Origin: Pseudomonas lalucatii
GTDB lineage: Bacteria; Pseudomonadota; Gammaproteobacteria; Pseudomonadales; Pseudomonadaceae
NCBI RefSeq assembly: GCF_018398425.1
Contig: NZ_JADPMV010000001.1
Span: 806,001 to 870,000, forward strand
DNA: 64,000 nucleotides
Reading direction: 5' to 3'
The translations under genes were made by a program, and so were the position numbers. Each line of letters starts with the position of its first letter. Position 1 is the first letter of the stretch. Shown piece by piece: positions 23,146-63,573 of this stretch. The notes beneath the pieces were generated by a model. That model saw nothing but the letters and a program-made list of their open reading frames with translations. It was not told where the DNA came from and did not search any database.

Positions 23146-23775
23146 TCAGGCCTTAATCGCCAGTCCGAACTCGGCGCACGCATCCTGCAGCCACAACCAG
23201 ATGTAATCGGCGAAGCTGCGGCGCACCAAGAGCTCCCAGGTGTCCTCGCCGGTTCGGCGGATCACCAGCTGGGACTTGGCAAAGACAGTACCGACGGCCT
23301 TGCCCACCGGGAAGTTGCGCGGGTGCACGTCGTAGGAGCTGGACTTCATCAGCACTTCGCGAGCCTTGGGGCCGCTCAGCTCGACAATGGTCTGGCCGCC
23401 ACTGACGTTGACCACCTGGTGATGGTGCCCTGCCAGGCCAGCACGCAGCTTGCTCTCCACTTCGAACTCGGAGCCGCCGGGCACGATCAGCAGCCACTCG
23501 TCCGGGCCCAGCCATTGCAGCGAGGTCTCGCCGTCGGCCACCAGGGTCAGCGCGCTCGGCAGCTCCAGGCCCAGGGCCTTGTGCACGGCAGCGGAGAACG
23601 TGGAATCGTGGCCGTCGCCACGCAGGATCAGGTGGCCGAGCAGTTTCTTCTCGCGCAGGATCACCCCGGCGCTGCTCTTGCCCTTGCGTGCCAGCTCGTC
23701 GAGACCGGCGTGGAACAGCGGGGACTCGGCCTTGCCGGCATCGGGGCGCTGCTTGTAGACGTTGATCGCGGTCAT
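23146..23775 (-). CDS. soxG: sarcosine oxidase gamma subunit
   Basis: The 209-residue gamma subunit of heterotetrameric sarcosine oxidase. The family features are SPLFHAGL, a central LQWLGPDEWLLI block, the NVSGGQTIVELSGPKAREVL segment and RRTGEDTWELLVRRSFADYIW. The complex oxidises sarcosine to glycine, hydrogen peroxide and 5,10-methylene-tetrahydrofolate. It is the last gene of glyA-soxBDAG, 75 bases after soxA. In P. aeruginosa, as I recall, a purU homologue follows; here it is replaced by the hairpin and the integrase scar. Confidence 0.93.
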   Translation of the reverse strand: MTAINVYKQRPDAGKAESPLFHAGLDELARKGKSSAGVILREKKLLGHLILRGDGHDSTFSAAVHKALGLELPSALTLVADGETSLQWLGPDEWLLIVPGGSEFEVESKLRAGLAGHHHQVVNVSGGQTIVELSGPKAREVLMKSSSYDVHPRNFPVGKAVGTVFAKSQLVIRRTGEDTWELLVRRSFADYIWLWLQDACAEFGLAIKA

Positions 23776-30048: not shown

Positions 30049-30105
30049 ATTGTGCGAAATGGCCCGGGGCGCCGTTTGTTCATTTCCGACGCGAAAATGT
30101 TCGGC
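30049..30105 (-). promoter_or_regulatory. glyA-sox promoter with shared operator (copy A)
   Basis: The operator core TTTCCGACGCGAAAATGTTCGGC (plus sense) cannot be given in one run here; its key parts are CCGACG at 30086-30091 and TGTTCGG at 30098-30104, an inverted CCGA/TCGG pair. On the minus strand AACAAACGGC follows and CACAAT (30054-30049) is the -10-like hexamer. The 29-base offset between operator edge and hexamer is the same as at four other promoters in this region. Confidence 0.65.
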
Positions 30106-30239
30106 TTGCCCGGCCGATGCGTGCACCACCGATTGCCGAAACAGCCGCTGCAGACGGCTCAAAGTAGCGCCTTGGGAATGATCGATAGGCGCTGGAATGA
30201 GTGTAAAATCGACCGCTGGCTGGCCGTTTCAGGCAGCCC

Positions 30240-30250
30240 AAGAACAACAA
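30240..30250 (+). promoter_or_regulatory. AAGAACAACAA motif in the leader of the GlxA-type regulator
   Basis: It matches AAnAANAA twice. It lies 76 bases before the proposed GTG start, further away than in other genes here, so a Crc/Hfq effect is less certain. Confidence 0.3.
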
Positions 30251-30325
30251 GAGCCTCAGTAGACTCCCTTGCGCCTGCGTGCATTGCGCGAAAGGGCGAC
30301 AGCTACTGCAGTGGAGGTTTTTCAA

Positions 30326-31342
30326 GTGGCGCAAACGTCAAATACATTGAAGCCGGTCGAAAGCCCGCTCAGGGGGGCGCCGGAACCTCGAGTGAAAACC
30401 TTTGGCTTCCTGCTTACCCCCAACTTCACCACCATCGGCTTCGCCTGTGCGATAGAGACCCTGCGCATGGCCAACCTGGCCGCCCGACGCACCCTCTACC
30501 GATCGCTGCTGATCGCCACTGACCACGAACTGGTGCGCGCCAGCAACGGCATGTGCGTGGTACCCGATCACTCGATCGCCGATGCGCCGGAATTGGACGC
30601 ACTGTTCGTGGTGGGCTCCAACCCGATTCCGAGCAAGCACGACCGCAACCTGCTCAACTGGCTGCGCAAGCTGGCCCACCAGGACGTGCCGCTGGGCGGC
30701 ATCTGCACCGGCAGTCACCTGCTGGCCAGCGCCGACCTGCTGAAGGGCCACCGCTGCACCATTCACTGGGAAGACATCGAGCAGCTCAAGGAGAAGTTTC
30801 CCGGGATCATCATCTCCAACCAGCTGTTCGAGTTGGACCGCAACCGCTACACCTGCTCCGGCGGCACCGCCTCCATGGACATGACCCTGCAGCTGATCGC
30901 CCGCGAACCCGGTGGCGCGGAGATTGCCGAGCATGCTGCGGAGCTGCTGCTGTGCGATCGCATGCGTGGCTCCCGCGAGCAGCAGCGGGTGCCGCTGCGG
31001 CAAAAACTCGGACACGCCCAGCCCAAGCTCAGTCAGATAGTCGCGATCATGGAGGCCAACCTGGAAGAGCCTCTGGAGCTGGAAGAGCTCGCCCAGCTCA
31101 ACGAGGTGTCGGTGCGCCAACTGGAGCGACTGTTCCACAAGTACCTGGAGCGCAAGCCCAGCCAGTACTACCTGGAGCTACGCCTGAACCGCGCCCGTGA
31201 TCTGCTGCTGCGCACTGACGCTCAGGTGCGCGACATCTCCCTGTCCTGTGGCTTCGCTTCACCGGCGCACTTCTCCAAGTGCTACAGCCGCCTGTTTGGC
31301 CATTCTCCGCGTGACGAACGCAAACAGAGCGCACTGGGATAG
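30326..31342 (+). CDS. GlxA-family AraC-type regulator beside the sox operon
   Basis: A 338-residue regulator with a DJ-1/PfpI-like sensor domain (about 20-195, with the elbow GGICTGSHLLA) and a C-terminal AraC DNA-binding domain with two helix-turn-helix units (VSVRQLERLFHKYL and ASPAHFSKCYSRLF). The start is GTG at 30326, chosen because GGAGG lies eight bases upstream; an earlier TTG at 30269 lacks such a site. It is divergent from glyA-soxBDAG and shares the gap with operator copy A. The family includes the glycine betaine and sarcosine regulators GbdR and SouR, so control of creatine/sarcosine use is likely. Which inducer it senses cannot be read from sequence. Confidence 0.88.
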   Translation: MAQTSNTLKPVESPLRGAPEPRVKTFGFLLTPNFTTIGFACAIETLRMANLAARRTLYRSLLIATDHELVRASNGMCVVPDHSIADAPELDALFVVGSNPIPSKHDRNLLNWLRKLAHQDVPLGGICTGSHLLASADLLKGHRCTIHWEDIEQLKEKFPGIIISNQLFELDRNRYTCSGGTASMDMTLQLIAREPGGAEIAEHAAELLLCDRMRGSREQQRVPLRQKLGHAQPKLSQIVAIMEANLEEPLELEELAQLNEVSVRQLERLFHKYLERKPSQYYLELRLNRARDLLLRTDAQVRDISLSCGFASPAHFSKCYSRLFGHSPRDERKQSALG

Positions 31343-31450
31343 CTCTTGAGGCAGCGGATAGCGCCGAGTCATATCTCGCTCACCAAACCTAATTCCTCGC
31401 CCCAACCTCGCCTTCATGGCCGGCGCCCTTGCGCAGAGACCGCAAAACGC

Positions 31451-31483
31451 AAAAGGGCCACTGACTGCGCCGAGTCAGTGGCC
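31451..31483 (-). terminator. intrinsic terminator of the symporter gene
   Basis: GGCCACTGACT (31456-31466) and AGTCAGTGGCC (31473-31483) form an 11-bp stem. On the minus strand CCTTTTGCGTTTTG follows. It lies 18 bases after the symporter stop and may also serve the regulator on the plus strand. Confidence 0.8.
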
Positions 31484-31501
31484 ACTCCTGGAACTGATGG
31501 T

Positions 31502-32959
31502 TTATCGCGCCCGTTGCGGTAGCGACACCCGAGTCCGGGTCAACATGGAGACGGCGACATAGATGATGGATGAGGCCAGGCAGCCGATCAGCGGCCCCTC
31601 GACCCAACCGATATCGGTGCTCAGCAGCAGGCCACCGCTGGTGAAGAAGCCCACCAGCATCGCCACCAGGGCGCCGGCCACGTTGCCCTGCCAAAAGGTG
31701 GAGATGAACACCGGGCCGATCATCGCCGCCAGCAGGGTGCCGGAGCCGAGAATACCCAGCCAGGACAGCATGAACGGCGGCGCATACATCATCATCAGCA
31801 GCCCCAGCAGCCCGAGCGCCACGACGGCCACACGGTTGACGGTCAGGGCATGGGGCGAGTCCACCTCGGCGTGCTTGTTCAGCGCCAGGCGCAGGTCATG
31901 GGAGGTTGCCGACGCCACGGTGTGTAGCATCGAGTTGGCGGTGGACTTCATGGCGAAGATGATGAACAGGGTGATGATCCCCTGCAGAGCCGGATGCATG
32001 AACGTCTGCAGGTACATCGGCATGGCGCTGTCCGGGTCGGCCAGTTGCGGACCGAAGGCGCGCATGTACAGGCCAACCAGCGGGATCAGGCTGAGCAGCG
32101 CGCCGAGAATCGCCACGTAGATGCCGACCTTGTGCATCTTCACGTTCGGCTTGAAGGCGAGGAAACGGATCGCCATGTACGGCAGCACCGCGGCAAACAG
32201 GAAGGCATAGGGCAGAACCAGGAATACCGAACCCTTGCTGGTCCCATAGGGCGCCGCAGTCTCCGGATTGAGCAGGTTGGGATTGATGGTGTTGAGGTTG
32301 GCCTGCCACTGGCCCAGGTCGACGCTGGTGAACATCTGGACCATGATCACGATCGCCGCCAACGCCATGCCGCAGACCATCACGGTATCGGTCCAGGCCA
32401 CGGCGGCCAGGCCGCCGAGCATGGTGTAAAGGATGATCACCGAGATCATCAACCAGGCGCTGCTGGTCATCTCGATATTCAACCAGGACGCGCCGAGCAT
32501 GCCGACCGCCTTGATCTGGCTGACCAGAAACACCATCAGCAGGATGATGGTCATGAACGCCGCCACGCCCTGCAGCAGGCGCCCACCGGCACCGCCGCCG
32601 TGAATCTGGCCGATGTACTCGGGGATGGTATTGCTGCCCATGTGGATGGCGCGATTCTGCATGTGATTGGCGAAGAACAGCACCGCGATCATGATCGCAG
32701 GGGCGAAGAAGAAGTTGCCCAGCAACTCGATGGCACCGAACTCGTAAGCCACCGCCGGCGACCCCATGAAACCCCAGCCGCTGAAGCCGGTGGCCACTAT
32801 GGTGCTCGCACCGACAAAAGCGCCGAGACTCCTGCCCGCAAGCAGGAAGCCACCCTCGTCGCTGTCCTTGACCTTGCGCGAGGAGAGGAAGCCGATCCCG
32901 ATCATCACCGCGAAGGTGAGGATCAGCAGGCCCCAGTTGAACAGTTCATAGAAGTCCAT
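31502..32959 (-). CDS. sodium:solute symporter (SSS family)
   Basis: A 485-residue inner-membrane protein with about 13 hydrophobic helices. Family marks include FLLAGRSLGAFVGASTIVATGFSG, the conserved GGLAAVAWTDTV after helix 5, and a long C-terminal helix set. It starts at 32959 (MDFYELFNW), five bases after a 37-codon membrane gene, and ends at a strong terminator. It lies downstream of creatinase copy 1 on the same strand, so creatine, creatinine or sarcosine uptake is the likely job. The real substrate is unproven. Confidence 0.9.
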   Translation of the reverse strand: MDFYELFNWGLLILTFAVMIGIGFLSSRKVKDSDEGGFLLAGRSLGAFVGASTIVATGFSGWGFMGSPAVAYEFGAIELLGNFFFAPAIMIAVLFFANHMQNRAIHMGSNTIPEYIGQIHGGGAGGRLLQGVAAFMTIILLMVFLVSQIKAVGMLGASWLNIEMTSSAWLMISVIILYTMLGGLAAVAWTDTVMVCGMALAAIVIMVQMFTSVDLGQWQANLNTINPNLLNPETAAPYGTSKGSVFLVLPYAFLFAAVLPYMAIRFLAFKPNVKMHKVGIYVAILGALLSLIPLVGLYMRAFGPQLADPDSAMPMYLQTFMHPALQGIITLFIIFAMKSTANSMLHTVASATSHDLRLALNKHAEVDSPHALTVNRVAVVALGLLGLLMMMYAPPFMLSWLGILGSGTLLAAMIGPVFISTFWQGNVAGALVAMLVGFFTSGGLLLSTDIGWVEGPLIGCLASSIIYVAVSMLTRTRVSLPQRAR

Positions 32960-32964
32960 CGCGC

Positions 32965-33078
32965 TCACCCTCGCTGCCTGGCTTGTTTTTTGGCAGAGCG
33001 GCACAGATAGGTTCCGGCCGCAATCAGGAACATGAGAATGTTGAGCGCTACGAAGAGCGTAATTACCCAGGAATTCAT
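32965..33078 (-). CDS. 37-residue membrane protein, probable symporter accessory subunit
   Basis: The predicted peptide starts MNSWVITLFVALNILM, has one transmembrane helix (about residues 4-27) and a basic tail (CRSAKKQARQRG). It ends five bases before the symporter start. TGAGGC lies about 10 bases upstream of the ATG. Tiny one-helix proteins are known partners of some SSS and NSS transporters; position and topology support the same here. It is too short for homology to be certain. Confidence 0.6.
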   Translation of the reverse strand: MNSWVITLFVALNILMFLIAAGTYLCRSAKKQARQRG

Positions 33079-33286
33079 AACAAATGCCTCATTATTGTAT
33101 TTGTAATAACTGCTGAAGCAGCAACGAAACAACGCAGCGCACTTAACTCGGCCAATGCGTTTCATCACAACTTCACACACTGAGCGCCGTCCGGATGGAC
33201 GCGATAAAGCCTTCCCTTCGAATTCGTCCTTAAGACTGCTGATCGGCGCCGTATCGAGGCGCTGGTTGAGTCAACTCAGCCGTGGC

Positions 33287-33318
33287 GCAGCCGTGCCCCG
33301 CGTGGAGGGCACGGCTGC
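33287..33318 (-). terminator. strong hairpin after creatinase copy 1
   Basis: GCAGCCGTGCCC (33287-33298) and GGGCACGGCTGC (33307-33318) form a perfect 12-bp stem with an eight-base loop, nine bases after the creatinase stop. There is no T-run on either side. It may attenuate transcription into the symporter genes rather than end it. The gap 33079-33327 holds nothing else named. Confidence 0.45.
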
Positions 33319-33327
33319 GACCGAGCA

Positions 33328-34539
33328 TCACTTGCGAATGATGTTTTTCTCCGGCCCGTACGGGAATTTGGTGATGTTCTCCGCGCCTTGCTCGTTGACG
33401 ATCAGGATGTCGTGCTCGCGGTAGCCACCGGCACCCGGACGGCCTTCCGGCAGCATGATCATCGGCTCCATGGACACCACCATGCCCGGCTCCAGCACCG
33501 TGTCGATGTCCTCGCGCAGTTCCAGCCCGGCCTCGCGGCCGTAGTAGTGGCTGAGGGTGCCGAAGGAGTGGCCGTAGCCGAAGGTGCGGTACTGCAGCAG
33601 GTCGTGCTTGAGGAAGATCTCGTTCAGCTCGCGGGCGATATCGCTGCAACGCATGCCCGGCTTGATCAGCTTGAGCCCGGCCTCGTGCACCTCGACGTTG
33701 GCCAGCCACAGGCGCAGATGGTCGTCGGAGCAGTGGTCGAGGAACAGGGTGCGCTCCAGCGCGGTGTAGTAGCCGGCGATCATCGGAAAGCAGTTCAGGC
33801 TGAGGATGTCGCCCTTGTTCACCTTGCGCGTGGTGACCGGGTTGTGCGCGCCGTCGGTGTTGATGCCGGACTGGAACCAGGTCCAGGTGTCCATCAGCTC
33901 GACGTCCGGGAAGGTGCGGGCAATCTCGCGCACCATGGCCTGGGTGGCGTGCAGGGCCACTTCGTATTCCGGCACCTGGTCACGCAGCGCCTCGACCACC
34001 GCGGCGCCACCGATGTCGGCGATGCGCGCGCCATGGCGGATCATCTCGTGCTCTTCGGCGGACTTGATCATGCGCATGCCCATGCACGGCGCGGCGATGT
34101 CGACCAGCTCGGCGTCCGGGTAGCGGGCGGCCAGCTTGGCGCGGTTCTGCAGGTTGATATGGTCGTACTCGATGCCGATGCGGCGCGCCTTCGGCAGCGC
34201 CTGCTGGATGGCAACGAAGTAGTTGTCGCGCTGCCAGTCGGTGTAGACGATGTTGTCGGTACCGGCGGTGCGACGCCACGGCTGGCCACCGTCGATGTTG
34301 GCGCTGATGCTGACCACGTCGTCCTGGGTCACCACCAGGGCATAGGGACGACCGAACGAGCAGAACAGGAAGTCGCTGTAGTAGTTGATGTTGTGGTACG
34401 AGGTGAAGACTGCGGCGTCGATGTCCTGGGCGGCCATATGGGCGCGCAGCTTGGCCTGGCGGTTGACATACTCCTGGGCGGAGAAAGTGGATTTGACCTT
34501 TTCGCCGTTCTGAATCCGGATCGTCTGGGGCATCTGCAT
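33328..34539 (-). CDS. creatinase (creatine amidinohydrolase), copy 1
   Basis: Creatinase splits creatine into sarcosine and urea in the cytoplasm. The 403-residue protein matches Pseudomonas creatinase over its whole length. The known catalytic residues are in place: His232 (in TDGAHNPV), Glu262, Arg335 and Glu358. The start MQMPQT at 34539 is preceded by AAGGA. It differs from copy 2 (37991) by eight amino acids (positions 5, 13, 16, 25, 74, 134, 138, 367). Its promoter contains shared operator copy B. It is followed by the symporter genes, which suggests a uptake-plus-hydrolysis unit. Confidence 0.96.
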   Translation of the reverse strand: MQMPQTIRIQNGEKVKSTFSAQEYVNRQAKLRAHMAAQDIDAAVFTSYHNINYYSDFLFCSFGRPYALVVTQDDVVSISANIDGGQPWRRTAGTDNIVYTDWQRDNYFVAIQQALPKARRIGIEYDHINLQNRAKLAARYPDAELVDIAAPCMGMRMIKSAEEHEMIRHGARIADIGGAAVVEALRDQVPEYEVALHATQAMVREIARTFPDVELMDTWTWFQSGINTDGAHNPVTTRKVNKGDILSLNCFPMIAGYYTALERTLFLDHCSDDHLRLWLANVEVHEAGLKLIKPGMRCSDIARELNEIFLKHDLLQYRTFGYGHSFGTLSHYYGREAGLELREDIDTVLEPGMVVSMEPMIMLPEGRPGAGGYREHDILIVNEQGAENITKFPYGPEKNIIRK

Positions 34540-34550
34540 GGCGTGAATCC

Positions 34551-34558
34551 TTTTTGTT
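34551..34558 (-). promoter_or_regulatory. AACAAAAA motif before creatinase copy 1 (Crc/Hfq-type)
   Basis: In the mRNA sense GGAAAACAAAAAGGATTC precedes the start by 11 bases and includes the AAGGA ribosome site. It fits AAnAANAA and is identical in front of copy 2. Confidence 0.45.
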
Positions 34559-34601
34559 TTCCAGTGACTCGACCCGCCGGTTTGGCGAGCCGTTGGAAAG
34601 C

Positions 34602-34658
34602 ATTGCACCAGATGCCCCCATGCCTTTTTTGTACATTCCCGACCCGAAATTGGTCAGA
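34602..34658 (-). promoter_or_regulatory. creatinase copy 1 promoter with shared operator (copy B)
   Basis: Operator core CCGACCCGAAATTGGTCA (plus sense) at 34639-34656 has the dyad GACC-N7-GGTC. On the minus strand GTACAAAAAAGGC follows, and TGCAAT (34607-34602) is the -10-like hexamer, 29 bases from the operator edge. There is no good -35, as expected for an activator-dependent promoter. Confidence 0.7.
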
Positions 34659-34780
34659 TCCGCTTCCCTTCTCTGGGCATTTCCAGGCCTGAGCGTTCCT
34701 TGGCCTGTCGCGCCTGTCCTGACGCCCTGCCATCAGCCCACACGGTCTCTGTTGCCACAACAAGAAGCACAGACAGCACA

Positions 34781-34810
34781 AAGCCACGGACTTCTCCAGG
34801 TCCGTGGCTT
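34781..34810 (-). terminator. intrinsic terminator of the creatininase-BCCT operon
   Basis: AAGCCACGGA (34781-34790) and TCCGTGGCTT (34801-34810) form a 10-bp stem about 70 bases after the BCCT stop. The U-rich side is weak on the minus strand (CTTTGTGCTG), better on the plus strand (CTTTGTTCTT). Confidence 0.7.
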
Positions 34811-34877
34811 TGTTCTTATGGGCGTTTCACTTTCGGTACCCGAGTGGGTGCCAGTATGGGCACCGTCCTTTTCTGAC

Positions 34878-36518
34878 TCAGTCCTTGGCGATGCTCTCTT
34901 GCCGCAATGCCCGCACCAAACTCAGGCACATCAGCAGCATGATCACAGAGAACGGCAGCGCACTGGCGATGGCGGCAGTCTGCAGGGTCGCCAACGAAGC
35001 CGCGCCTCCCGCCACCAGCAGCACGCCCGCTACCACGCCCTGCTGCACGCCCCAGAACACACGATGGCGGGTGGCGGTATGCACAGCACCATGGGACATG
35101 ATGGTGGTCATCACCAGGGTTGCCGAGTCCGAAGAGGTGATGAAGTAGGTGGCAACCAGTACCGCGCCCAACCAGAGTGCCATGGTGCCCAGGCCGCCCA
35201 GCGACATGGAGTCGACAGTGGCGAAGAAGGCATTGGCCACATCCTTGGAAACCGCGGCACTGATGCCCCCGTCGGCGAAAAGTTCATTGCTCACCGCGGT
35301 GCCACCAAAGGCGACGACCCAGACGAAGGTCAACAGAGAGGACACGCCTATTACGCCGAGAATGAACTCGCGGATGGTGCGGCCACGGGAAACGCGGGCG
35401 ATGAACACGCCAACAAAAGGCGCCCAGGACAACCACCAGCCCCAATAGAACACCGTCCACCAACCCTGCCAGCTCGATTTCCAGCCTTCCCACTTGGCCG
35501 GGTCCTGATGGCTGGCGTCGGTCCAGAAACTCATTTCGATGAAGCTTGCCAGATAATCGCCAGTGGCATCGACCAGCGACATGATCAGGTAACGCGACGG
35601 TCCCCAGATGAAGAAGAACAACACGAGCGCCACGGTCAGCCAGATGTTCAGCTCGCTGAGGCGTTTGACTCCTCGATCCACGCCAGACACCGCGGAGACC
35701 ATCGCCACCAGGGTGATCACGGCGATTATCGCCAGTTGCACCACTACCGAACTGTCCAGCCCGACCAGGCGGCTCAGACCCGCGTTGATCTGCTGCGCAC
35801 CAAGGCCCAGAGAAGTTGCGACGCCGAAGATGGTGGCAAGAATGGCCATGATGTCCACGGTATGGCCGAGGGCACCATCCATGCGTTTGCCGAACAGTGG
35901 CCGCAGCGTGGAGCGGATGGTCAGCGGCAATCCCTTTCTGTATGCGGCATAGGCCAGGGCCAACGCCACGATGCAGTAGATCGACCAGGCATGCAGCCCC
36001 CAGTGGAAAAAGGTGATACGCATGGCACTTTCCGCCGCCTCTGCGCTCATGCCCTCGGCCGCAAACGGGTTGCTCTGCAAGTGAAAGATGGGCTCGGCGA
36101 TGCTCCAGAAGATCAGCCCGATGCCCTGGCCGGCGGAAAACACCATGGCGAACCAGGAGAAATAGCCATATTGCGGTCTCTCGTCGACGCCCCCGAGGCG
36201 GATGCTGCCGAAGCGGCTGAACGCCAGCCACCCATTAAAGAACAGGAACAAGGCGGCGATCAGCACGTAGTACCAGGTGAAGTAGTAGGTGATGCCGCTG
36301 CGCACCCGGTCGAAGAACGCCGCGGCCTCCTCCTGAAAGCCCAGTACCGCGAAAATCACGCCGACGATAATCGCCAGTGAGCCAAGGGTGACGACTGGGT
36401 TCAGGCCCTTGAGCCAGGGACTCTGCGAGATCGCTACACTGGCCTCGTGCAAGTCACTCTTGAAGTCGTGACTCAACAGCCTGGGCGCGGCCTCGACCGC
36501 GCATTCTTCTGGTTTCAT
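34878..36518 (-). CDS. BCCT-family transporter (betaine/carnitine/choline type)
   Basis: A 546-residue inner-membrane transporter with about 12 helices. The family signature is clear: GQGIGLIFWSIAEP and the Trp-rich helix WTVFYWGWWLSWAPFVGVFIARVSRG. BCCT proteins move quaternary or methylated amines. The gene follows creatininase by 56 bases in the same operon, so creatinine or creatine is the likely cargo, although the substrate cannot be read from sequence. It is the second uptake system of the island. Confidence 0.92.
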   Translation of the reverse strand: MKPEECAVEAAPRLLSHDFKSDLHEASVAISQSPWLKGLNPVVTLGSLAIIVGVIFAVLGFQEEAAAFFDRVRSGITYYFTWYYVLIAALFLFFNGWLAFSRFGSIRLGGVDERPQYGYFSWFAMVFSAGQGIGLIFWSIAEPIFHLQSNPFAAEGMSAEAAESAMRITFFHWGLHAWSIYCIVALALAYAAYRKGLPLTIRSTLRPLFGKRMDGALGHTVDIMAILATIFGVATSLGLGAQQINAGLSRLVGLDSSVVVQLAIIAVITLVAMVSAVSGVDRGVKRLSELNIWLTVALVLFFFIWGPSRYLIMSLVDATGDYLASFIEMSFWTDASHQDPAKWEGWKSSWQGWWTVFYWGWWLSWAPFVGVFIARVSRGRTIREFILGVIGVSSLLTFVWVVAFGGTAVSNELFADGGISAAVSKDVANAFFATVDSMSLGGLGTMALWLGAVLVATYFITSSDSATLVMTTIMSHGAVHTATRHRVFWGVQQGVVAGVLLVAGGAASLATLQTAAIASALPFSVIMLLMCLSLVRALRQESIAKD

Positions 36519-36533
36519 CTTTCAGCCCTCTGA

Positions 36534-36541
36534 TTGTTGTT
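36534..36541 (-). promoter_or_regulatory. AACAACAA motif before the BCCT gene (Crc/Hfq-type)
   Basis: In the mRNA sense CACAACAACAATCAGAGGG places the motif 15 bases upstream of the start and just before the ribosome site. It suggests translational control of this second cistron by Crc/Hfq. Confidence 0.5.
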
Positions 36542-36574
36542 GTGGGTGCTGGTCAAACGTATGCGGCGGCCGAA

Positions 36575-37360
36575 TCAGGGAATCGGTTCGAATGCCTCCT
36601 GCAGCGCGGCGGCGATTCCCGCGACGCAGACCTCAAGGATCAGTTCCCCCTTTTCCCGGCTGGCGCCGCGCGCGGAGGACAGGGTGCCGGACGCAGGCGT
36701 TCGCTGCGGCACAATGGGGAAGACGTCATAGGGGGGGAAACTTGCAGGGGGATGATCGACGACACGGGTCATGTCGACGAGCTCGGGGTACAACGCCAAC
36801 ATCAGCGAGGTCTCGAATACACCGCCATGCTCGATGTCCCAGCCGAGGAAGCCCTCAGGGTAGAGCTGGGCGATAACCTGCGGATCGTTCACGAAGTCCC
36901 AGTAGGAGAGCAGTACCACTTTGAAATCGTCGATGCCCGCGTAACGCAGTTCGCGCAGGGCTAGGTCGATACCCTCAACCACGAACATCGAGTTCTCATA
37001 GTGCCCGTTCATCAGCACCAGCCTGCGCGCACCATGGCGTGCGAGCTCACGGATGATGTCCTGCACCGTGCCGGTGAGGGTGGCGCCATCCAGGCTGGTA
37101 GTGCCTGGAAAGTGATTTCCGCCTCCGGACTTCTGTTGTGACTTGTATCCGTACTGCAGCCCCGGCAGGACCAACGCACCAATACGCTCGGCGACCCGCT
37201 GGCATACGGCAGTAGGCAGCAGCACATCGACGTTCATGCACATATGGTGACCGTGCTGCTCCAATGCACCTACCGGCAACATCAGCACGCAATCGCCTCG
37301 ACTGACCCTGGATTCGTATTCCTTCCAGGTCAGTTCGCCTACAAAAACGCTTCTAGTCAT
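36575..37360 (-). CDS. crnA: creatininase (creatinine amidohydrolase)
   Basis: The enzyme opens creatinine to creatine. The 261-residue product matches Pseudomonas creatininase along its full length. Metal ligands known from the P. putida enzyme are in place: Glu34, His36 and Asp45 in ALEQHGHHMCMNVD, then the NGHYENS motif. The start at 37360 has AGGAGA upstream; an open extension to 37660 crosses the promoter and is not coding. It forms an operon with the BCCT transporter under operator copy C. Confidence 0.96.
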   Translation of the reverse strand: MTRSVFVGELTWKEYESRVSRGDCVLMLPVGALEQHGHHMCMNVDVLLPTAVCQRVAERIGALVLPGLQYGYKSQQKSGGGNHFPGTTSLDGATLTGTVQDIIRELARHGARRLVLMNGHYENSMFVVEGIDLALRELRYAGIDDFKVVLLSYWDFVNDPQVIAQLYPEGFLGWDIEHGGVFETSLMLALYPELVDMTRVVDHPPASFPPYDVFPIVPQRTPASGTLSSARGASREKGELILEVCVAGIAAALQEAFEPIP

Positions 37361-37409
37361 CGATTCATCTCCTGAGAGTGCAGGCACAGATGGCCTCTCA
37401 CTGCCTGGC

Positions 37410-37466
37410 ATTGCAGCAGAAGCAGCAGTGCCGTTTTTGTACATATCCGACCCTAAGTTGGTCACA
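37410..37466 (-). promoter_or_regulatory. creatininase promoter with shared operator (copy C)
   Basis: Operator TATCCGACCCTAAGTTGG plus TCACA (plus sense, 37444-37466) keeps the GACC-N7-GGTC dyad. On the minus strand ATGTACAAAAACGGC follows and TGCAAT (37415-37410) is the -10-like hexamer, with the same 29-base offset as the other copies. Confidence 0.7.
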
Positions 37467-37990
37467 CTCGCCAGGATGCGGGTCAGCGCGCGCCTATGTG
37501 CCGCCTCGTTGATCATCCGCCCGCCCTCCACGGCGCGGCAGCGGCGGCCAGCACCTCCAGCTAATGCCCGTGCTTTAGCTGCCTGTGCGAACAACCGAGT
37601 GGCGGCGATGGGGGTAGAACCGCCAACCATTGAGTTGGCAGTACTGACGTAGGCGGCCAAGATGCGGGATCAGGATCAGGCTCCCGCTGCCCGGTTTGCC
37701 CCAGACTCACTGCAACCTAACTCGGGATACTGATGAGTCTTACGCCGCCACGACTTCATCGCGGAGTAATTGGGTAGATTGAGAGCGAACCTCTTCATGA
37801 ACCGATAATAGGATTCGCAGCGCCCTGCATCAGACAGTATTTTTTCCGGGGTGACGCCCAAAATGAATCATGCGCCCCTTGCGCGCACAACACCTGAAAC
37901 GGGCAAGAAGGCACGGAGGTCTTGGCTCCTCCGCACCTTGTGAGCCAGGAACATCGTAATCAGGCAGCGTTGCACCGCCTGTGACGAACG
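37467..37990. other. gene-free gap upstream of the creatininase promoter
   Basis: I see no supportable gene. A 61-codon minus-strand frame (37676-37861) has no ribosome site and no family resemblance. A short CGGAGG/CCTCCG hairpin (37914-37933) lies 58 bases after the stop of creatinase copy 2 and could end its transcript. Base composition is less GC-rich than in the flanking genes. Confidence 0.5.
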
Positions 37991-39202
37991 TTACTTGCGA
38001 ATGATGTTTTTCTCCGGCCCGTACGGGAATTTGGTGATGTTCTCCGCGCCCTGCTCGTTGACGATCAGGATGTCGTGCTCGCGGTAGCCACCGGCACCCG
38101 GCAGACCTTCCGGCAGCATGATCATCGGCTCCATGGACACCACCATGCCCGGCTCGAGCACCGTGTCGATGTCCTCGCGCAGCTCCAGCCCGGCTTCGCG
38201 GCCGTAGTAGTGGCTGAGGGTGCCGAAGGAGTGGCCGTAGCCGAAGGTGCGGTACTGCAGCAGGTCGTGCTTGAGGAAGATCTCGTTCAGCTCACGGGCG
38301 ATATCGCTGCAGCGCATGCCCGGCTTGATCAGCTTGAGACCCGCCTCGTGCACTTCGACGTTGGCCAGCCACAGACGCAGGTGGTCGTCGGAGCAGTGGT
38401 CGAGGAACAGGGTGCGCTCCAGCGCGGTGTAGTAGCCGGCGATCATCGGGAAGCAGTTCAGGCTGAGGATGTCGCCCTTGTTCACCTTGCGGGTGGTGAC
38501 CGGGTTGTGCGCGCCGTCGGTGTTGATGCCGGACTGGAACCAGGTCCAGGTGTCCATCAGCTCGACGTCCGGGAAGGTGCGGGCGATCTCGCGCACCATG
38601 GCCTGGGTGGCATGCAGGGCCACTTCGTACTCCGGCACCTGGTCACGCAGCGCCTCGACCACCGCGGCGCCGCCGATGTCGGCGATACGCGCACCGTGAC
38701 GGATCATCTCGTGCTCTTCGGCGGACTTGATCATGCGCATGCCCATGCACGGGGCGGCGATGTCGACCAGCTCGGCATCCGGGTAGCGGTCGGCCAGCTT
38801 GACGCGGTTCTGCAGGTTGATGTGGTCGTATTCGATGCCGATGCGGCGCGCCTTCGGCAGCGCCTGCTGGATGGCGACGAAGTAGTTGTCGCGCTGCCAG
38901 TCGGTGTAGACGATGTTGTCGGTGCCGGCGGTGCGGCGCCACGGCTGGCCACCGTCGATGTTGGCGCTGATGCTGACCACCGCGTCCTGGGTCACCACCA
39001 GGGCGTAGGGACGACCGAAGGAGCAGAACAGGAAGTCGCTGTAGTAGTTGATGTTGTGGTACGAGGTGAAGACCGCGGCGTCGATGTCCTGGGCGGCCAT
39101 GTGGGCGCGCAGTTTGGCCTGGCGGTTGGCATACTCCTGGGCGGAGAAGGTGGAGTTGACCTTGTCGCCGTTCTGAATCCGGATCGTCTTGGGCATCTGC
39201 AT
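37991..39202 (-). CDS. creatinase (creatine amidinohydrolase), copy 2
   Basis: The 403-residue second creatinase is about 98 percent identical to copy 1. Catalytic His232, Glu262, Arg335 and Glu358 are kept. Of the two, copy 2 is nearer to the characterised P. putida enzyme at several differing places (MQMPK, NGDKV, EYANRQ, PEGLPG). The silent-site differences show that the duplication is not brand new. The 5' leader and promoter are duplicated as well, including operator copy D. It is a single-gene unit between a gene-free gap and the terminator of the serine dehydratase operon. Confidence 0.96.
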   Translation of the reverse strand: MQMPKTIRIQNGDKVNSTFSAQEYANRQAKLRAHMAAQDIDAAVFTSYHNINYYSDFLFCSFGRPYALVVTQDAVVSISANIDGGQPWRRTAGTDNIVYTDWQRDNYFVAIQQALPKARRIGIEYDHINLQNRVKLADRYPDAELVDIAAPCMGMRMIKSAEEHEMIRHGARIADIGGAAVVEALRDQVPEYEVALHATQAMVREIARTFPDVELMDTWTWFQSGINTDGAHNPVTTRKVNKGDILSLNCFPMIAGYYTALERTLFLDHCSDDHLRLWLANVEVHEAGLKLIKPGMRCSDIARELNEIFLKHDLLQYRTFGYGHSFGTLSHYYGREAGLELREDIDTVLEPGMVVSMEPMIMLPEGLPGAGGYREHDILIVNEQGAENITKFPYGPEKNIIRK

Positions 39203-39213
39203 GGCGTGAATCC

Positions 39214-39221
39214 TTTTTGTT
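39214..39221 (-). promoter_or_regulatory. AACAAAAA motif before creatinase copy 2 (Crc/Hfq-type)
   Basis: Same leader as copy 1: the motif overlaps the ribosome site 11 bases before the start. Confidence 0.45.
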
Positions 39222-39264
39222 TTCCAGTGACTCGATTCGCCGGTTTGGCGAGCCGTTGGAAAGC

Positions 39265-39321
39265 ATTGCACCAGATGCACTTCTGCCATTTTTGTACGTT
39301 TCCGACCCGAAATTGGTCAGA
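39265..39321 (-). promoter_or_regulatory. creatinase copy 2 promoter with shared operator (copy D)
   Basis: Operator core CCGACCCGAAATTGGTCA at 39302-39319 is identical to copy B. TGCAAT (39270-39265) is the -10-like hexamer, again 29 bases from the operator edge. The stretch between operator and start codon is almost the same as for copy 1. Confidence 0.7.
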
Positions 39322-39499
39322 TCCGCTGCGCCTGCCTGGCTCGGTTTATTTGTGCAAGGCGCTCCCAAGCCCGGCCTTGGCGATCAGGGCGCTGGCGAGC
39401 TTCTCAGCTCGTCCACGCCACTTCCGGGCTCTGTTTAGGCGCCAGCAGGAAAGCCAAGGGCCACAGGTTTCCACTCCCCTTCCCGATTTCCACACGCGC

Positions 39500-39533
39500 A
39501 AAAAAAACCCGTCCTGAGCTGGGACAGGACGGG
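39500..39533 (-). terminator. intrinsic terminator of the serine dehydratase-regulator operon
   Basis: CCCGTCCTG (39508-39516) and CAGGACGGG (39525-39533) form a 9-bp stem, followed on the minus strand by eight T (39507-39500). It lies 25 bases after the regulator stop. Confidence 0.88.
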
Positions 39534-39558
39534 CAAAAAGGATCGGTTGTCGAGTAGC

Positions 39559-40566
39559 TCAGTGCACGACCGCGCGCAAGCGTTGCGCACGACCTTGGCG
39601 CTCAATGCTGGGAGCTGACCCGAAGTGCTCGCGATAGCACTTGGAAAAATGCTGCGCCGAAACGAAGCCACAACTGGAGGCGATGTCCAGGATCGAAAGG
39701 GTCGTCTGCTTCAGCAGCTGGCGTGCCTGCAGCAGTCGCAACTTCAGGTAGTAACGAGACGGCGAACACTGCACGTGCTGGCAGAAGATGCGCTCGAGCT
39801 GTCGCCTGGACAGGCCGACAAAGCTGGCCAGCTTTACCAGCTCGATGGGCTCCTCGAGATTCGCTTCCATCAGCCCGATCGCCTCCTGCAACTTCGGTTG
39901 GGAGCTGCCCATGGTCTGCCGCAGCGTCAGTCTTTGTGGCACTTGCTCACTGCGAATGCGCTCCAGCACCAGCGTATCGCTGATCGCCTCGGCCAAGACA
40001 GGACCATGACTGCGCATGATCAGCTGCAGCATCATGTCTGCCCCGTCGCTGCCGTTCCCCGCGGTGTAGCGGTCACGATCCAGTACGAAATGCCGGGTAC
40101 TGAGTACGATGCCGGGAAAGGCTTCCTGCATATCGACCCGGTACTCCCAGCTGGTGCAGCATTCATAGCCATCCAGCAGACCGGCGTTGGCCAGAAGCCA
40201 ACTGCCAGACCCCAGGCTACCCAGGTGGGTGCCTTGATCGGCGTGCCGCTGCAGCAGGCGAATCTGTTCTGGATCGCAGCAGCGCTGGATGTTCTCCGCG
40301 CCACAGATGATCAACGCATCCAGATCGTCCTCGGACGTGGCGGCGCCATCCGGCGATACCAGCATGCCGCTGTTGGCGCGCACCGGTCGGCCATCCATCG
40401 TCAGGGTTCGCCAGCGATACAGGTCGCTGCCGGAAAACTGATTGGCCCGGCGCAACGGTTCCAGCACCGCGGCCAGCGTGATGAGGCTGAAATTGTCGGT
40501 GAGCAAGAAGCCGATCGACTGGATCGCAACCTCTGCCGGCTGCTTCAGCGCCTGGTAAGCGGACAT
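39559..40566 (-). CDS. GlxA-family AraC-type regulator in the serine dehydratase operon
   Basis: A 335-residue regulator with a DJ-1/PfpI-like domain (about 18-190) and an AraC-type DNA-binding domain (LSRRQLERIFCQHV and VSAQHFSKCYREHF). The sensor elbow reads GSLGSGSW, without the Cys seen in the regulator at 30326. The second recognition helix shares HFSKCY with that regulator, so both may read related sites. The start at 40566 has GAGGAGA upstream. It is 70 bases downstream of serine dehydratase and under operator copy E, which suggests autoregulation. GbdR-like function (glycine betaine to sarcosine catabolism) is a reasonable guess. Confidence 0.87.
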   Translation of the reverse strand: MSAYQALKQPAEVAIQSIGFLLTDNFSLITLAAVLEPLRRANQFSGSDLYRWRTLTMDGRPVRANSGMLVSPDGAATSEDDLDALIICGAENIQRCCDPEQIRLLQRHADQGTHLGSLGSGSWLLANAGLLDGYECCTSWEYRVDMQEAFPGIVLSTRHFVLDRDRYTAGNGSDGADMMLQLIMRSHGPVLAEAISDTLVLERIRSEQVPQRLTLRQTMGSSQPKLQEAIGLMEANLEEPIELVKLASFVGLSRRQLERIFCQHVQCSPSRYYLKLRLLQARQLLKQTTLSILDIASSCGFVSAQHFSKCYREHFGSAPSIERQGRAQRLRAVVH

Positions 40567-40636
40567 GGGGAAATCTCCTCGGCAACGGCCTGGCAATGGA
40601 GCGTCAATCGGCTCACTAACGAATGAATAGCGGGGC

Positions 40637-42016
40637 TCAGCACTCGACCGCGCTGACCGCCAGGCCACCGCGCGAGGTTTCCTTGTACTTGTCGTGCATG
40701 TCGGCACCGGTATCGCGCATGGTGCGGATCACCCGGTCGAGGGAGATAAAGTGCTCGCCATCGCCGCGCAGGGCCATCTGCGCCGCGTTGATCGCCTTCA
40801 CCGCGGCGATCGCGTTGCGCTCGATGCACGGCACCTGGACCAGGCCGCCGACCGGGTCGCAGGTCAGTCCGAGGTTGTGCTCCAGGCCGATCTCGGCGGC
40901 GTTTTCCAGCTGCTCCGGGGTGGCGCCGAGGATCTCGGCCAGGCCCGCGGCAGCCATCGCACAGGCCGACCCGACCTCGCCCTGGCAGCCCACTTCGGCA
41001 CCGGAGATCGAGGCGTTCTTCTTGCACAGGATGCCCACGGCGGCGGCCGCCAGCAGGTAGTCGACCACGTCGGCCTCGCTCACCGCCGGGCTGAAGCGCA
41101 CGTAGTAGTGCAGCACCGCCGGGATGATGCCGGCCGCGCCGTTGGTCGGCGCCGTCACCATGCGCCCGCCGGCGGCGTTCTCCTCGTTCACCGCCAGGGC
41201 GAACAGGTTGACCCACTCCATGCCGCTCAGGGTCGAGCCGATCACGTTGGGCTTGCTCATCTCCTGCAGGCTGCGGTGCAGCTTGGCGGCGCGGCGCTTG
41301 ACGTTGAGGCCGCCGGGCAGGATGCCTTCGTGCTTGAGGCCGTTGTCCACGCAGTCGCGCATGGCCTGCCACAGGCGCATCAGGCCGGCGCGGATCTCCG
41401 CCTCGCTGCGCCAGGCCTTCTCGTTCTCCATCATCAGCTGGGACACGCGCAGGCCGTGCTGCTTGCACAGGCGCAGCAGCTCGGCGGCGCTGGAGAAGTC
41501 ATAGGGCAGGCGCGTGCCGTCCTGGTCCAGCTGGCCGGCGGCGGCCTGCTCGGCGTCGACCACGAAGCCGCCACCGATCGAGTAGTAGGTGTCGCCGTGC
41601 AGTTCGCGGCCTTCGCCGCAGAACGCGGTCAGGGTCATGGCGTTGGGGTGATAGGGCAGGTTCTCCTCCAGCAGCAGCATGTCGCGCTGCCAGTCGAACG
41701 CCACGGCCAGGCGGCCGTCCAGCTGCAGCTGACCGCTGGCGCGCAGCGCCTCGATGCGCGGGGCGATCTGGCTCGGGTCGATGCTGTCCGGCCATTCGCC
41801 CATCAGCCCCATGATCACCGCGGTGTCGCTGCAATGGCCGACGCCGGTGGCCGACAGCGAGCCGTACAGCCGTACCTCGACACGCGCGACCCGCTCGAGC
41901 AGGCGGCGCTCGCGCAGGGCACCGACGAACAGGGCGGCGGCGCGCATGGGGCCAACGGTATGGGAGCTGGACGGCCCGATACCGATCTTGAACAGGTCGA
42001 ACACACTAATGGCCAA
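40637..42016 (-). CDS. sdaB: L-serine ammonia-lyase (serine dehydratase), TTG start
   Basis: The enzyme converts serine to pyruvate and ammonia with an iron-sulfur cluster. The 459-residue single-chain form starts ISVFDLFKIGIGPSSSHTVGPMRAA and shows TAPTNGAAGIIPAVLHYY and GSACAMAAAG, with conserved cysteines in the second half. Family proteins begin right before ISVFDLF; the codon there is TTG at 42016 with AGAGGA eight bases upstream, and no ATG is near. It takes the serine made by GlyA to pyruvate, completing the creatine route. The promoter has operator copy E. Confidence 0.92.
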   Translation of the reverse strand: MAISVFDLFKIGIGPSSSHTVGPMRAAALFVGALRERRLLERVARVEVRLYGSLSATGVGHCSDTAVIMGLMGEWPDSIDPSQIAPRIEALRASGQLQLDGRLAVAFDWQRDMLLLEENLPYHPNAMTLTAFCGEGRELHGDTYYSIGGGFVVDAEQAAAGQLDQDGTRLPYDFSSAAELLRLCKQHGLRVSQLMMENEKAWRSEAEIRAGLMRLWQAMRDCVDNGLKHEGILPGGLNVKRRAAKLHRSLQEMSKPNVIGSTLSGMEWVNLFALAVNEENAAGGRMVTAPTNGAAGIIPAVLHYYVRFSPAVSEADVVDYLLAAAAVGILCKKNASISGAEVGCQGEVGSACAMAAAGLAEILGATPEQLENAAEIGLEHNLGLTCDPVGGLVQVPCIERNAIAAVKAINAAQMALRGDGEHFISLDRVIRTMRDTGADMHDKYKETSRGGLAVSAVEC

Positions 42017-42066
42017 AGCCGAATCCTCTGCCGCTTGCACACCCTCAGGTGCGTGTAGTGCGGAAG

Positions 42067-42123
42067 ATTGTTGACTGTGGCAGGGAAGCAAAACTGTCTA
42101 GCCTCGACCCGAAATTGTTCGAA
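42067..42123 (-). promoter_or_regulatory. serine dehydratase promoter with shared operator (copy E)
   Basis: The operator (42101-42123, plus sense) reads CTCGACCCGAAATTGTTCGA in its core. AACAAT (42072-42067) is the -10-like hexamer at the same 29-base offset. The flanking GTACAAA stretch of the other copies is absent. The gap 42017-42298 holds nothing else I can name. Confidence 0.6.
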
Positions 42124-42298
42124 GTCGTCGCCTCTCACTAGAATCCAGAGCCATGCCAAGCCACCCGCTCGTTTCTATAGCTTTGACTGTCTCGAGCACC
42201 CCGCGGCGGCCATTTCCCGCACTACAGACGCAGCTCTCCTGCAGACGCCAGCAAGTACCGACGCGCCGTCCACAGATTCGATAGTGCGAACAGCGTCA

Positions 42299-46180: not shown

Positions 46181-46268
46181 GGCGGACCACGATAGGCAAC
46201 CGGACACATCCGATAGACACCCGGAATTCCGCAGGAATCCGGACTATGACCAGGCCGCAATGGCCATC

Positions 46269-46279
46269 AATAACAACAA
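46269..46279 (+). promoter_or_regulatory. AATAACAACAA motif before the arylsulfatase (Crc/Hfq-type)
   Basis: The motif lies 13 bases before the start and directly ahead of GAGGGA. It fits AAnAANAA twice. Confidence 0.5.
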
Positions 46280-46292
46280 GAGGGACTTCACC

Positions 46293-61887: not shown

Positions 61888-63573
61888 ATGGCAATCAGCT
61901 ACAAGCCACAACTGCAACAATCGGACTTTCAGGACCTGAGCAAACAGATCCGCTTTCAAAGCATGGAAGGCAAGATCTGGCTCGGCGAGCAGCGCATGTT
62001 GCTGCTACAGGTCTCGGCCATGGCCGGCTTTCGCCGCGAGCTGGTAAGCATCCTCGGCGTCGAGCGGGCCAAGGGTTTCTTCCTGCGCCTGGGTTACCAG
62101 TCTGGCCTGCGCGATGCCGAGCTGGCGCGCAAGCTGCGACCGCATTGCAGCGAGCTGGATATCTTTCTCGCTGGCCCACAGCTGCATTCGCTCAAGGGCA
62201 TGGTCAAGGCGGTCCCCACCGAGGTGGATGTCGATATCGAGGCCGGACGCTTCCACGTCGAGGTGGAGTGGGTCGACTCCTTCGAGGTGGAAATTTGCCA
62301 GAACGAACTGGGAACTATGGACGGTCCGGTGTGCTGGACCCTGCTCGGCTATGCCTGCAGCTACTCGTCCTCGTTCATGGGGCGCGAGGTGATCTTCAAG
62401 GAGATCACCTGCCGTGGTTGTGGCCACGACAAGTGCCGGATCGTCGGTAAGCTGGCCGAAGATTGGGACGACGCCGAGACGTTCAAGCAGTATTTCAAGA
62501 GCGATCCGATCATCGAGGAACTCTACGAGCTGCAGTCGCAACTGGCCTCGCTGCGCACCAGCCTGCAGCGCCAGGAAGGCCAGTACTACGGCATCGGCCA
62601 GTCCCTGGCCTACACCAAGGTCTGCCAGATGATCGACAAGGCCGCCCAAGGCAAGGTCTCGGTGCTGTTACTCGGCGAAAGCGGTGTCGGCAAGGAGGTG
62701 ATTGCGCGCAGCGTGCACCTGCGCAGCGCCCGCGCCGAGCAGCCGTTCGTCGCAGTCAACTGTGCCGCCATTGCACCGGACCTGATCGAGGCCGAGCTGT
62801 TCGGCGTCGAGAAAGGCGCCTTTACCGGTGCACTGCAGTCGCGCATGGGCCGTTTCGAACGGGCCAACCAGGGCACCATCTTCCTCGACGAAGTGATCGA
62901 GCTGAGTGCGCGGGCCCAGGCCACCCTGCTGCGCGTGCTGCAGGAGGGCGAGCTGGAGCGGGTCGGCGACAACCGCACGCGCAAGGTCGACGTACGGGTA
63001 ATCGCCGCCACCAACGAAAGCCTCAGCGAAGCGGTCAAGGCGGGCAAGTTCCGCGCCGACCTGTACTACCGGCTCAATGTGTTCCCGGTGAGTATCCCGC
63101 CCCTGCGCGAACGCCTGGAGGATATCCCGCTGCTGGTGGAGCATTTCCTCAAGCGCTTCCACAGCGAATACAGCAAGAAGACCCTGGGACTTTCCGATAA
63201 AGCCATGGAGGCCTGCATGCACTACCCCTGGCCGGGAAATATCCGCGAACTGGAGAACGTCATAGAGCGCGGCATCATCCTCACCGAAAGCAACGAGAGC
63301 ATCGGCCTCGAGGCACTGTTTCCGCAGTTGCAGCTGGAAGAATTGATGGAGAGCCGACTTGCGAGCGACGGCACCTTGCTGCAACCGGCGGCCGAACAGA
63401 GCTGGATCGAGCAGGTGTTGGGTTCGGGCCTGAGCCTGGACGCCATTGAAGAGCAGTTGATGCGCGAAGCCATGCAGCGTTCGGGCAACAATGTTTCCGG
63501 CGCGGCGCGCACACTCGGACTGACCCGCCCTGCCCTGGCTTACCGATTGAAGAAGATCGGCATCGAGGCCTGA
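61888..63573 (+). CDS. dmpR: phenol-responsive sigma54 activator DmpR
   Basis: The 561-residue activator binds phenol and switches on the dmp operon. The N-terminal V4R sensor keeps zinc ligands Cys149, Glu172, Cys175 and Cys183 and phenol-contact positions His100 and Trp128 (by alignment with MopR/DmpR from memory). The AAA+ domain has Walker A GESGVGKE (263-270), GAFTGA (310-315) for sigma54 contact and FLDEV. The C-terminus has a Fis-type helix-turn-helix ([24 protein letters not shown]). It is divergent from dmpK across a 493-base gap with the promoter and two binding sites. Confidence 0.96.

Follow-up and report, generated by a model that had tools for sequence, protein, structure and literature searches.

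The window analysed here, 64,000 nucleotides of contig 1 of Pseudomonas lalucatii (C1:806001-870000; the genome comprises 4.58 Mb on 2 contigs), contains a cluster of genes for the catabolism of creatinine and creatine, and five promoters of this cluster carry the same kind of putative operator. The genes concerned are glyA with the sarcosine oxidase (sox) genes, a sodium:solute symporter gene, two creatinase genes, a creatininase gene with a BCCT transporter gene, and a serine dehydratase gene (sda) with the regulator gene regB; a further regulator gene, regA, is divergent from glyA. The operator spans 37 bp and consists of a distal and a proximal half-site of 16 bp each, separated by 5 bp and arranged as a tandem direct repeat of 21-bp period. 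With the -10-like hexamer that follows at a fixed distance, it makes up a conserved, well-defined module of operator and promoter, and the kind of module is known. The sites fit the GATR-type operators, the published site type of the regulators CdhR, GbdR, SouR and ArgR, and binding by a protein of this group is predicted. GATR proteins are AraC-family regulators with an N-terminal GATase-1-like sensor domain. It seems quite probable that the operators of the cluster fall into related classes, which are read by two or three sister regulators of this type.

The repeat and its promoter geometry

The five operators and the hexamers that follow them are located in the window as follows.

30076..30112, minus strand: operator 1 (glyA-sox), glyA class, two 16-bp half-sites with a 21-bp period
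34629..34665, minus strand: operator 2 (creatinase 1), cre class, within a duplication
37437..37473, minus strand: operator 3 (creatininase-BCCT), crn class
39292..39328, minus strand: operator 4 (creatinase 2), cre class, counterpart of operator 2 in the duplication
42094..42130, minus strand: operator 5 (serine dehydratase-regB), sda class
30049..30054, minus strand: -10-like hexamer CACAAT, glyA-sox
34602..34607, minus strand: -10-like hexamer TGCAAT, creatinase 1
37410..37415, minus strand: -10-like hexamer TGCAAT, creatininase-BCCT
39265..39270, minus strand: -10-like hexamer TGCAAT, creatinase 2
42067..42072, minus strand: -10-like hexamer AACAAT, sda-regB operon

Positions are counted from the first base of the proximal box (GGTCGG, CGTCGG or GGTCGA on the minus strand), which is taken as 0. 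The boxes start at 30091, 34644, 37452, 39307 and 42109, and CAAT begins at +39 in all five. A preliminary description of this DNA had placed a shared operator at the same five promoters, with its near edge exactly 29 bases from a hexamer ending in CAAT. This agrees with the present count: the near edges correspond to the proximal-box base minus 8, and CACAAT, TGCAAT (three times) and AACAAT follow 29 bases on. The preliminary description had further argued that five such places are hard to obtain by chance. The fixed geometry is indeed present in all of them, but the independent sites number four. This is because a 1.36-kb direct duplication inside the cluster, which stops at the outer edge of the operator, spans operator and promoter of both creatinase genes, so that the two count once.

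33309..34664, no strand assigned: first copy of the duplicated segment, holding creatinase 1, its promoter and its operator, 95.5% identical to 37972-39327 over 1,357 columns
37972..39327, no strand assigned: duplicated segment, copy 2, 95.5% identical to copy 1

Several creatinase copies are also found in P. borbori (locus L072).

When each of the five sites was matched against itself at a lag of 21, there was agreement at 8, 8, 9, 8 and 7 of 16 positions (40 of 80 in total), compared with 29 at the best other lag between 10 and 39; in the glyA site alone, lag 24 equals lag 21 (8 each). The same period is found in a set of 40 operators, hand-picked after a profile scan, that comprises the five sites and 35 operators from 18 loci of relatives, balanced over four classes. 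Here lag 21 gives a mean agreement of 7.8 of 16, whereas lag 22, the next best of lags 8-40, gives 5.4. The half-site has roughly the form nGnCG-N8-CA(A). GTCG of the proximal half-site is invariant in 40/40 operators and the distal box is degenerate, so that the GTCG of this operator type is found in one of the two half-sites. Direct-repeat half-sites with the 21-bp period of GATR-type operators are thus present in the five sites and the four classes, and they extend to other taxa: upstream of creatinase genes outside Pseudomonas, pairs of NGTC(C/G) lie 21 bases apart in 18 of 38 regions, and any other spacing below 45 occurs in at most 4 (this count is without loci L103 and L110). Some loci lacking such a pair, and left uncounted, look by eye like variants, including Paraburkholderia with TGGCCA pairs and Acinetobacter.

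The preliminary description had taken the dyad GACC-N7-GGTC to be the core of the operator. We reject this in favour of the direct repeat at lag 21. The dyad is the junction between the end of the distal half-site (GACCAA) and the start of the proximal one (GGTCGG). Its exact form is found in 3 of the 5 sites, it is not part of the consensus of the glyA or sda class, and its frequency is little above chance (5 matches in the window, against a mean of 1.62 in shuffled sequence, with 4 of 100 shuffles reaching 5). A neighbouring motif, given as (G/A)ACAAA..GGC, does exist, and its ACAAA is the end of the proximal half-site. By eye, however, it reads (A/T)ACAAA, and GGC is shifted by 2 bases in the glyA copy.

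The period is also that of the published CdhR site. According to PMC5806209, the footprint of CdhR upstream of caiX in P. aeruginosa consists of GGTCGC half-sites with a 15-bp spacer, i.e. a 21-bp period, with about 34 bp protected; CdhR binds direct repeats, and its site is described as similar to those of GbdR, SouR and ArgR. Among the entries listed in a literature search of one open library, there was no report of a GATR operator in creatinine genes.

The five sites stand out clearly from the background of the genome. An 18-mer core with up to 3 mismatches occurs 4 times in the window, compared with 0.01 expected; the glyA copy has 4 mismatches (by eye) and hence is outside this list. A held-out profile, built from the 35 operators of relatives and none from this genome, gave 36.8 bits for glyA, 46.4 for creatinase 1, 37.7 for creatininase, 49.9 for creatinase 2 and 30.7 for sda. 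The maximum was 14.3 bits among 798,560 background positions, which were taken from both strands of a 400-kb sample of this genome (20 stretches of 20 kb, about 9% of the whole). None of the 58 background matches above 4 bits had CAAT or GAAT at +39. When the class of the scored site was itself left out of the profile, the creatinase sites still reached 40.6 and 42.9 bits, creatininase 36.5, glyA 31.6 and sda 17.9, and in none of these tests did any of the 798,560 background places score as high. A search of the whole 4.58 Mb with a model of all 40 operators, which includes the five sites, returned only these five, with E-values from 2.3e-8 to 3.9e-4; the sixth match had E 0.22 (150 of 1,799 first-look candidates were scored).

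The geometry is conserved in relatives. From named genomes, 79 creatinase loci were collected, of which 39 belong to close Pseudomonadaceae (L064-L102) and the other 40 comprise 39 from other taxa and one from P. protegens. The operator is present in 39/39 of the close loci, at 14.5 bits or more against the five-site profile, with either CAAT (23) or GAAT (16) at +39. Among the 40 operator-promoters, positions +40 to +42 are A in 38, A in 39 and T in 38. The -35 hexamer (TTGACA, spacing 15-19) is poor: 33 of the 40 promoters match it at 2 of 6 positions, one at 1, four at 3, one at 4 and one at 5. Thus 34 of 40 have no more than 2 matches, compared with 46% of random places (54% of which have at least 3). 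With its proximal half-site extending to the -35 position, the operator suggests the layout of a class II activator. CdhR differs in this respect, being called a class I activator that binds further upstream (PMC5806209). In three loci of the fluorescens group (L080, L083 and L084, at about 16.6-16.8 kb), two opposed operators are found near creatininase, each with CAAT or GAAT at +39, as in a divergent promoter pair.

Operator classes and their distribution

The consensus of each class, simplified from the majority letters of the 35-operator set that also served for the models, is given here as distal half-site, proximal half-site and hexamer.

Creatinase/creatininase: GCGGATCTGACCAA - GGTCGGATACGTACAA - TGCAAT
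glyA class: GGTCAGTTTGAGCAT - CGTCGCAAACAGGCAA - CACAAT
sda class: CGGCGACTTTGAACAC - GGTCGAAGTTAGACAG - GACAAT

The distribution of the classes was surveyed in 148 genomes of the family Pseudomonadaceae, the present genome included. Only part of the first-look candidates was scored in each genome (14 in the regA search, 35 in the glyA- and sda-class searches), so that absences are to be read as "not found"; and since the named loci and the genomes overlap (e.g., L065 and G085), counts from the two sets are not independent. Creatinase was found in 19 of the 148 genomes and regA in 18, all of them among the 19 (cut-offs 1e-80 and 1e-100, respectively). The sole creatinase genome without regA, G110, has only a creatinase type of 68% identity. 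The operator is carried by all 17 close creatinases in 17 other genomes and is absent from both creatinases of the 68% type. In the close loci, regA lies inside the fetched stretch in 37 of 39, the exceptions (L090, L099) being short contigs. As judged from these sequences, the creatinase operator tracks regA.

At E<=0.001, the glyA-class model found sites in 26 of the 148 genomes, and in 24 the score exceeded 40 bits. Six of these genomes (G009, G011, G028, G052, G101 and G140) have the operator adjoining glyA at 41.6-67.1 bits, and neither creatinase nor regA was found in them. A regB query of 17 genomes (E<=1e-85) gave one match each in G011, G028, G052, G101 and G140, which groups with GbdR. 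In these five genomes the glyA operator thus persists in the absence of a match to regA or regB, and GbdR or a different GATR protein presumably maintains it.

With the sda-class model, 21 sites were found in 19 of 148 genomes; 14 are beside sda or a piece of it, and 3 are at regB without an intact sda. In G009, where there is no creatinase match, the site adjoins a fragment of sda where a contig ends, and regB is on another contig.

The classes are related, and their profiles recognise each other in part. With the creatinase and creatininase profile, whose background maximum is 12.9 bits, the glyA site scores 20.6. The sda site reaches 8.9 bits, a value equalled or exceeded at six background places.

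Regulators and the proposed reading of the sites

30269..31342, plus strand: regA, GATR/AraC regulator, candidate activator of operators 2-4; start probably at 30326; NF052371 385 bits, cut-off 480
39559..40707, minus strand: regB, GATR/AraC regulator, GbdR paralogue, candidate activator of operator 5; NF052371 428 bits, cut-off 480

Neither regA (385 bits) nor regB (428) reaches the 480-bit cut-off of the GbdR family model NF052371, which matches regA over residues 41-354. A true GbdR (656 bits) is encoded on contig 2, where it adjoins a serine dehydratase gene of its own. For regA, the following relatives were examined. The protein shows the combination of GATase-1-like and AraC domains that characterises CahR, and PF01965, PF12833 and PF00165 were present in nearly all of the best 120 of 1,485 relatives of regA, among which the closest named one is from Pseudomonas benzenivorans (96%); for regB, the closest named one among the best 120 of 3,021 is from P. 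lalucatii (93%). No sequence named SouR was among these two sets of 120, and a search of PDB sequences with regA returned domain relatives only.

Phylogeny places regA in a clade of 40 Pseudomonas sequences linked to creatinase (support of 100 in the Shimodaira-Hasegawa-like approximate likelihood ratio test, SH-aLRT), which also holds the creatinase-linked regulators of P. putida and related species. The arrangement is shared as well: the regulator of P. putida NBRC 14671 (L094) lies about 1.6 kb downstream of the creatinase gene and faces it. Judging by clade, gene order and co-occurrence, regA is likely to be the orthologue of CahR, in a comparison that covers regulators other than the KT2440 protein itself. 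Creatine use by P. putida KT2440 reportedly is under the control of CahR (Hinkel et al. 2022, doi 10.1099/mic.0.001145). This conflicts with a statement in PMC8864220 that KT2440 lacks creatine degradation genes. The present locus has, beyond that of CahR, a creatininase gene, a BCCT transporter gene, a second creatinase gene and the serine dehydratase-regB pair, with an operator at each promoter.

The regB clade lies beside GbdR, the regulator of glycine betaine catabolism in P. aeruginosa (SH-aLRT 95; the same split has 92 and 85 in a smaller tree with some long branches). Identity between regB and the GbdR proteins, both the one encoded here and those of related genomes, is 53-58%. Their AraC domains are nearly alike in both helix regions, and the two regulators share serine dehydratase as a partner gene, which lies within the fetched stretch in 13 of 19 loci of the GbdR group (contig ends truncate some of the remaining 6). 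Copying of the serine dehydratase-GbdR pair would be the simplest account of the regB-serine dehydratase pair. Unlike GbdR, regB falls below the family cut-off, sits with creatinase in a genome that has a separate true GbdR, and has Gly at the elbow (nucleophile) position of the GATase domain, as do 11 of the 12 other clade members examined (12/13 altogether). GbdR and regA have Cys there. The Gly elbow alone is not proof of a lost function, since the column is non-Cys in many other regulators. The motif HFSKCY, noted earlier in a recognition helix of both regulators of the window, is indeed present in both, but it is present in GbdR too and so does not single out regA and regB. The few differences of the regA helices are in keeping with the operator classes, which would be a weak argument for their pairing. 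A possible direct repeat of 21-bp period was noted at C2:1529626 (L173:19626), where the GbdR-linked serine dehydratase gene is followed by a gene for a choline/betaine ABC transporter and the repeat lies between the two.

For SouR of P. aeruginosa, PMC5806209 and PMC8864220 describe control of sarcosine catabolism together with GbdR and a site resembling that of CdhR.

From sequences, geometry, conservation, co-occurrence and phylogeny, we propose that a GATR protein would bind both half-sites, two helical turns apart, and, acting as a class II activator, contact RNA polymerase. For the operators of creatinase and creatininase this protein would most likely be regA, with creatine as the probable inducer. 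The serine dehydratase-regB operator would most likely answer to regB and/or its sister GbdR, and for this reason regB is probably autoregulated. The glyA-sox operator may be older; its readers would be GbdR and/or a regulator of SouR type, and perhaps regA or regB as well.

A single activator (regA, or regA and regB interchangeably) that binds all five sites as one regulon, much as the preliminary description had supposed, is an unlikely alternative to sister regulators. The prediction of a GATR-type activator, acting at a constant distance from the -10 hexamer, is upheld, and architecture and exact geometry are common to the five sites; held-out profiles of one class pair find most sites of the other pair, and of the 26 loci detected by the glyA-class model, 18 have regA adjacent to glyA and the operator. 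The sites nonetheless fall into classes that retain their own letters, the creatinase and creatininase profile does not pick out the sda site, and the glyA operator persists in the six genomes where creatinase and regA were not found, in five of which the only match to regB groups with GbdR. That persistence, where of the three regulators only GbdR was found, could instead be taken to mean that all five operators are read by the choline/betaine regulator GbdR, encoded on contig 2, and that regA and regB are minor. GbdR is present, well above its family cut-off, with an AraC domain nearly that of regB. However, GbdR also occurs in genomes without creatinase, regA pairs with creatinase almost one to one, and creatine use in KT2440 is the reported domain of CahR (Hinkel et al., 2022, as mentioned), all of which makes control by GbdR throughout improbable. 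Least credible of all is the view that some unrelated dimeric regulator binds the element as a genuine palindrome and that the resemblance to GATR sites is coincidental: it would explain the exact dyad at three sites, but the dyad is missing from the consensus of the glyA and sda classes and is little above chance in the window, and creatinase sites of Caballeronia such as those of L114 and L124 lack it and read as direct repeats, TGTCGA/CGTCGA.

Several observations weigh against the reading proposed above. A profile of glyA and sda operators from relatives scores the creatinase and creatininase sites at 25.3-28.7 bits, above a background maximum of 17.4; since the sites are still recognised in this way, one protein might read them all. 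Differences in the recognition helices between regA and GbdR/regB are few. Among the 21 sda-class sites, 1 is at glyA, 1 is beside glyA and a piece of sda, and 2 have no query gene; only 5 exceed 40 bits, the rest scoring 17.6-29.1. As a positive control for GbdR, the repeat at L173:19626 scored 12.8 bits with the glyA profile, and by eye CAAT is missing at +39; within the same 40 kb, scores elsewhere run up to 14.9, so that this control shows nothing. Two crn operators (L065 and L068) have TATCTG/TATCAG and no CAAT hexamer. In P. protegens (L103), there is no profile match, the upstream region has GGTCGG with CAAT at +39 (by eye), and no regA was seen in the 21 kb of the locus. Among 40 creatinase loci, L103 and L110 included, the 21-bp pair is found in 16 of 24 with a nearby GATR gene and in 3 of 16 without (Fisher p=0.004, a value that treats related species as independent, which they are not). 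Beyond close Pseudomonas, the association between GATR genes and operators is partial, not tight.

Sister regulators with related operator classes remain the reading that we prefer, and a more specific form of it can be put forward tentatively, as a possibility that we rate somewhat below even. Three sister GATR proteins (the CahR type, GbdR, and the GbdR copy with the Gly elbow) may act with one geometry over the whole route from creatinine to pyruvate, separated only by the letters of their half-sites. The regB-serine dehydratase pair might descend from a copy of the ancestral pair of serine dehydratase and GbdR that was taken into service for the last step of the pathway, its ligand being new or absent, and the result would be a graded and partly cross-reading regulon.

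The predicted creatinine-to-pyruvate route

The remaining genes of the cluster are listed below, with bounds as open reading frames (ORFs) where stated.

23146..23775, minus strand: soxG, sarcosine oxidase gamma, TIGR01375
23851..26868, minus strand: soxA, sarcosine oxidase alpha, TIGR01372
27247..28497, minus strand: soxB, sarcosine oxidase beta, TIGR01373
28641..29957, minus strand: glyA, serine hydroxymethyltransferase, NF000586 652 bits; ORF bounds, start probably near 29895 (by eye)
31502..33004, minus strand: sodium:solute symporter, between creatinase 1 and regA, TIGR00813 below cut-off
33328..34608, minus strand: creatinase 1; ORF as listed, with a MQMPQT start about 23 codons inside; 98% identity to creatinase 2
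34878..36518, minus strand: BCCT transporter, downstream of creatininase, TIGR00842 489 bits, cut-off 408
36575..37660, minus strand: creatininase, TIGR04448 378 bits, cut-off 235; ORF bounds, conserved domain from residue 109
37991..39289, minus strand: creatinase 2, duplicate of creatinase 1; NCBIfam matches of M24-peptidase type, below cut-offs
40637..42091, minus strand: L-serine dehydratase (sda), TIGR00720 705 bits; ORF bounds, translation start probably inside

Creatininase, serine dehydratase, glyA and sox are named directly by NCBIfam. The two remaining enzymes, which we take to be creatinases, owe this name to their sequence and gene context, because their NCBIfam matches are of M24-peptidase type only and all lie under the cut-offs. 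In the established pathway, creatinine is converted to creatine, sarcosine, glycine, serine and finally pyruvate, and the enzymes encoded here could together carry out this conversion. One related operator code covers ring opening, creatine hydrolysis, sarcosine oxidation with serine synthesis, and serine deamination, as the preliminary description had proposed, and it includes the operon of a regulator itself, since an operator precedes sda-regB.

Three further features of the window are recorded. A large ORF (42299-44650) adjoins the sda operator and has weak matches to multiheme cytochromes and TPR, below cut-offs. An arylsulfatase-like protein, also below family cut-offs, is encoded at 46260-47963, and an inverted repeat of about 70 bp with 86% identity is found at 63228-63297 and 63921-63990.

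Creatininase and creatinase are the enzymes of clinical creatinine assays, and for this reason their native control is of practical use. For the catabolism of creatinine and creatine in Pseudomonas, the module provides a testable operator rule, a 21-bp direct repeat with CAAT 39 bases from the proximal box, which is less strict beyond this group. The activators of the cluster and its relatives are also a naturally occurring group of paralogues, whose recognition helices are similar and whose sites differ slightly, and they are suited to the study of how sister regulators of the AraC family avoid or use cross-talk.

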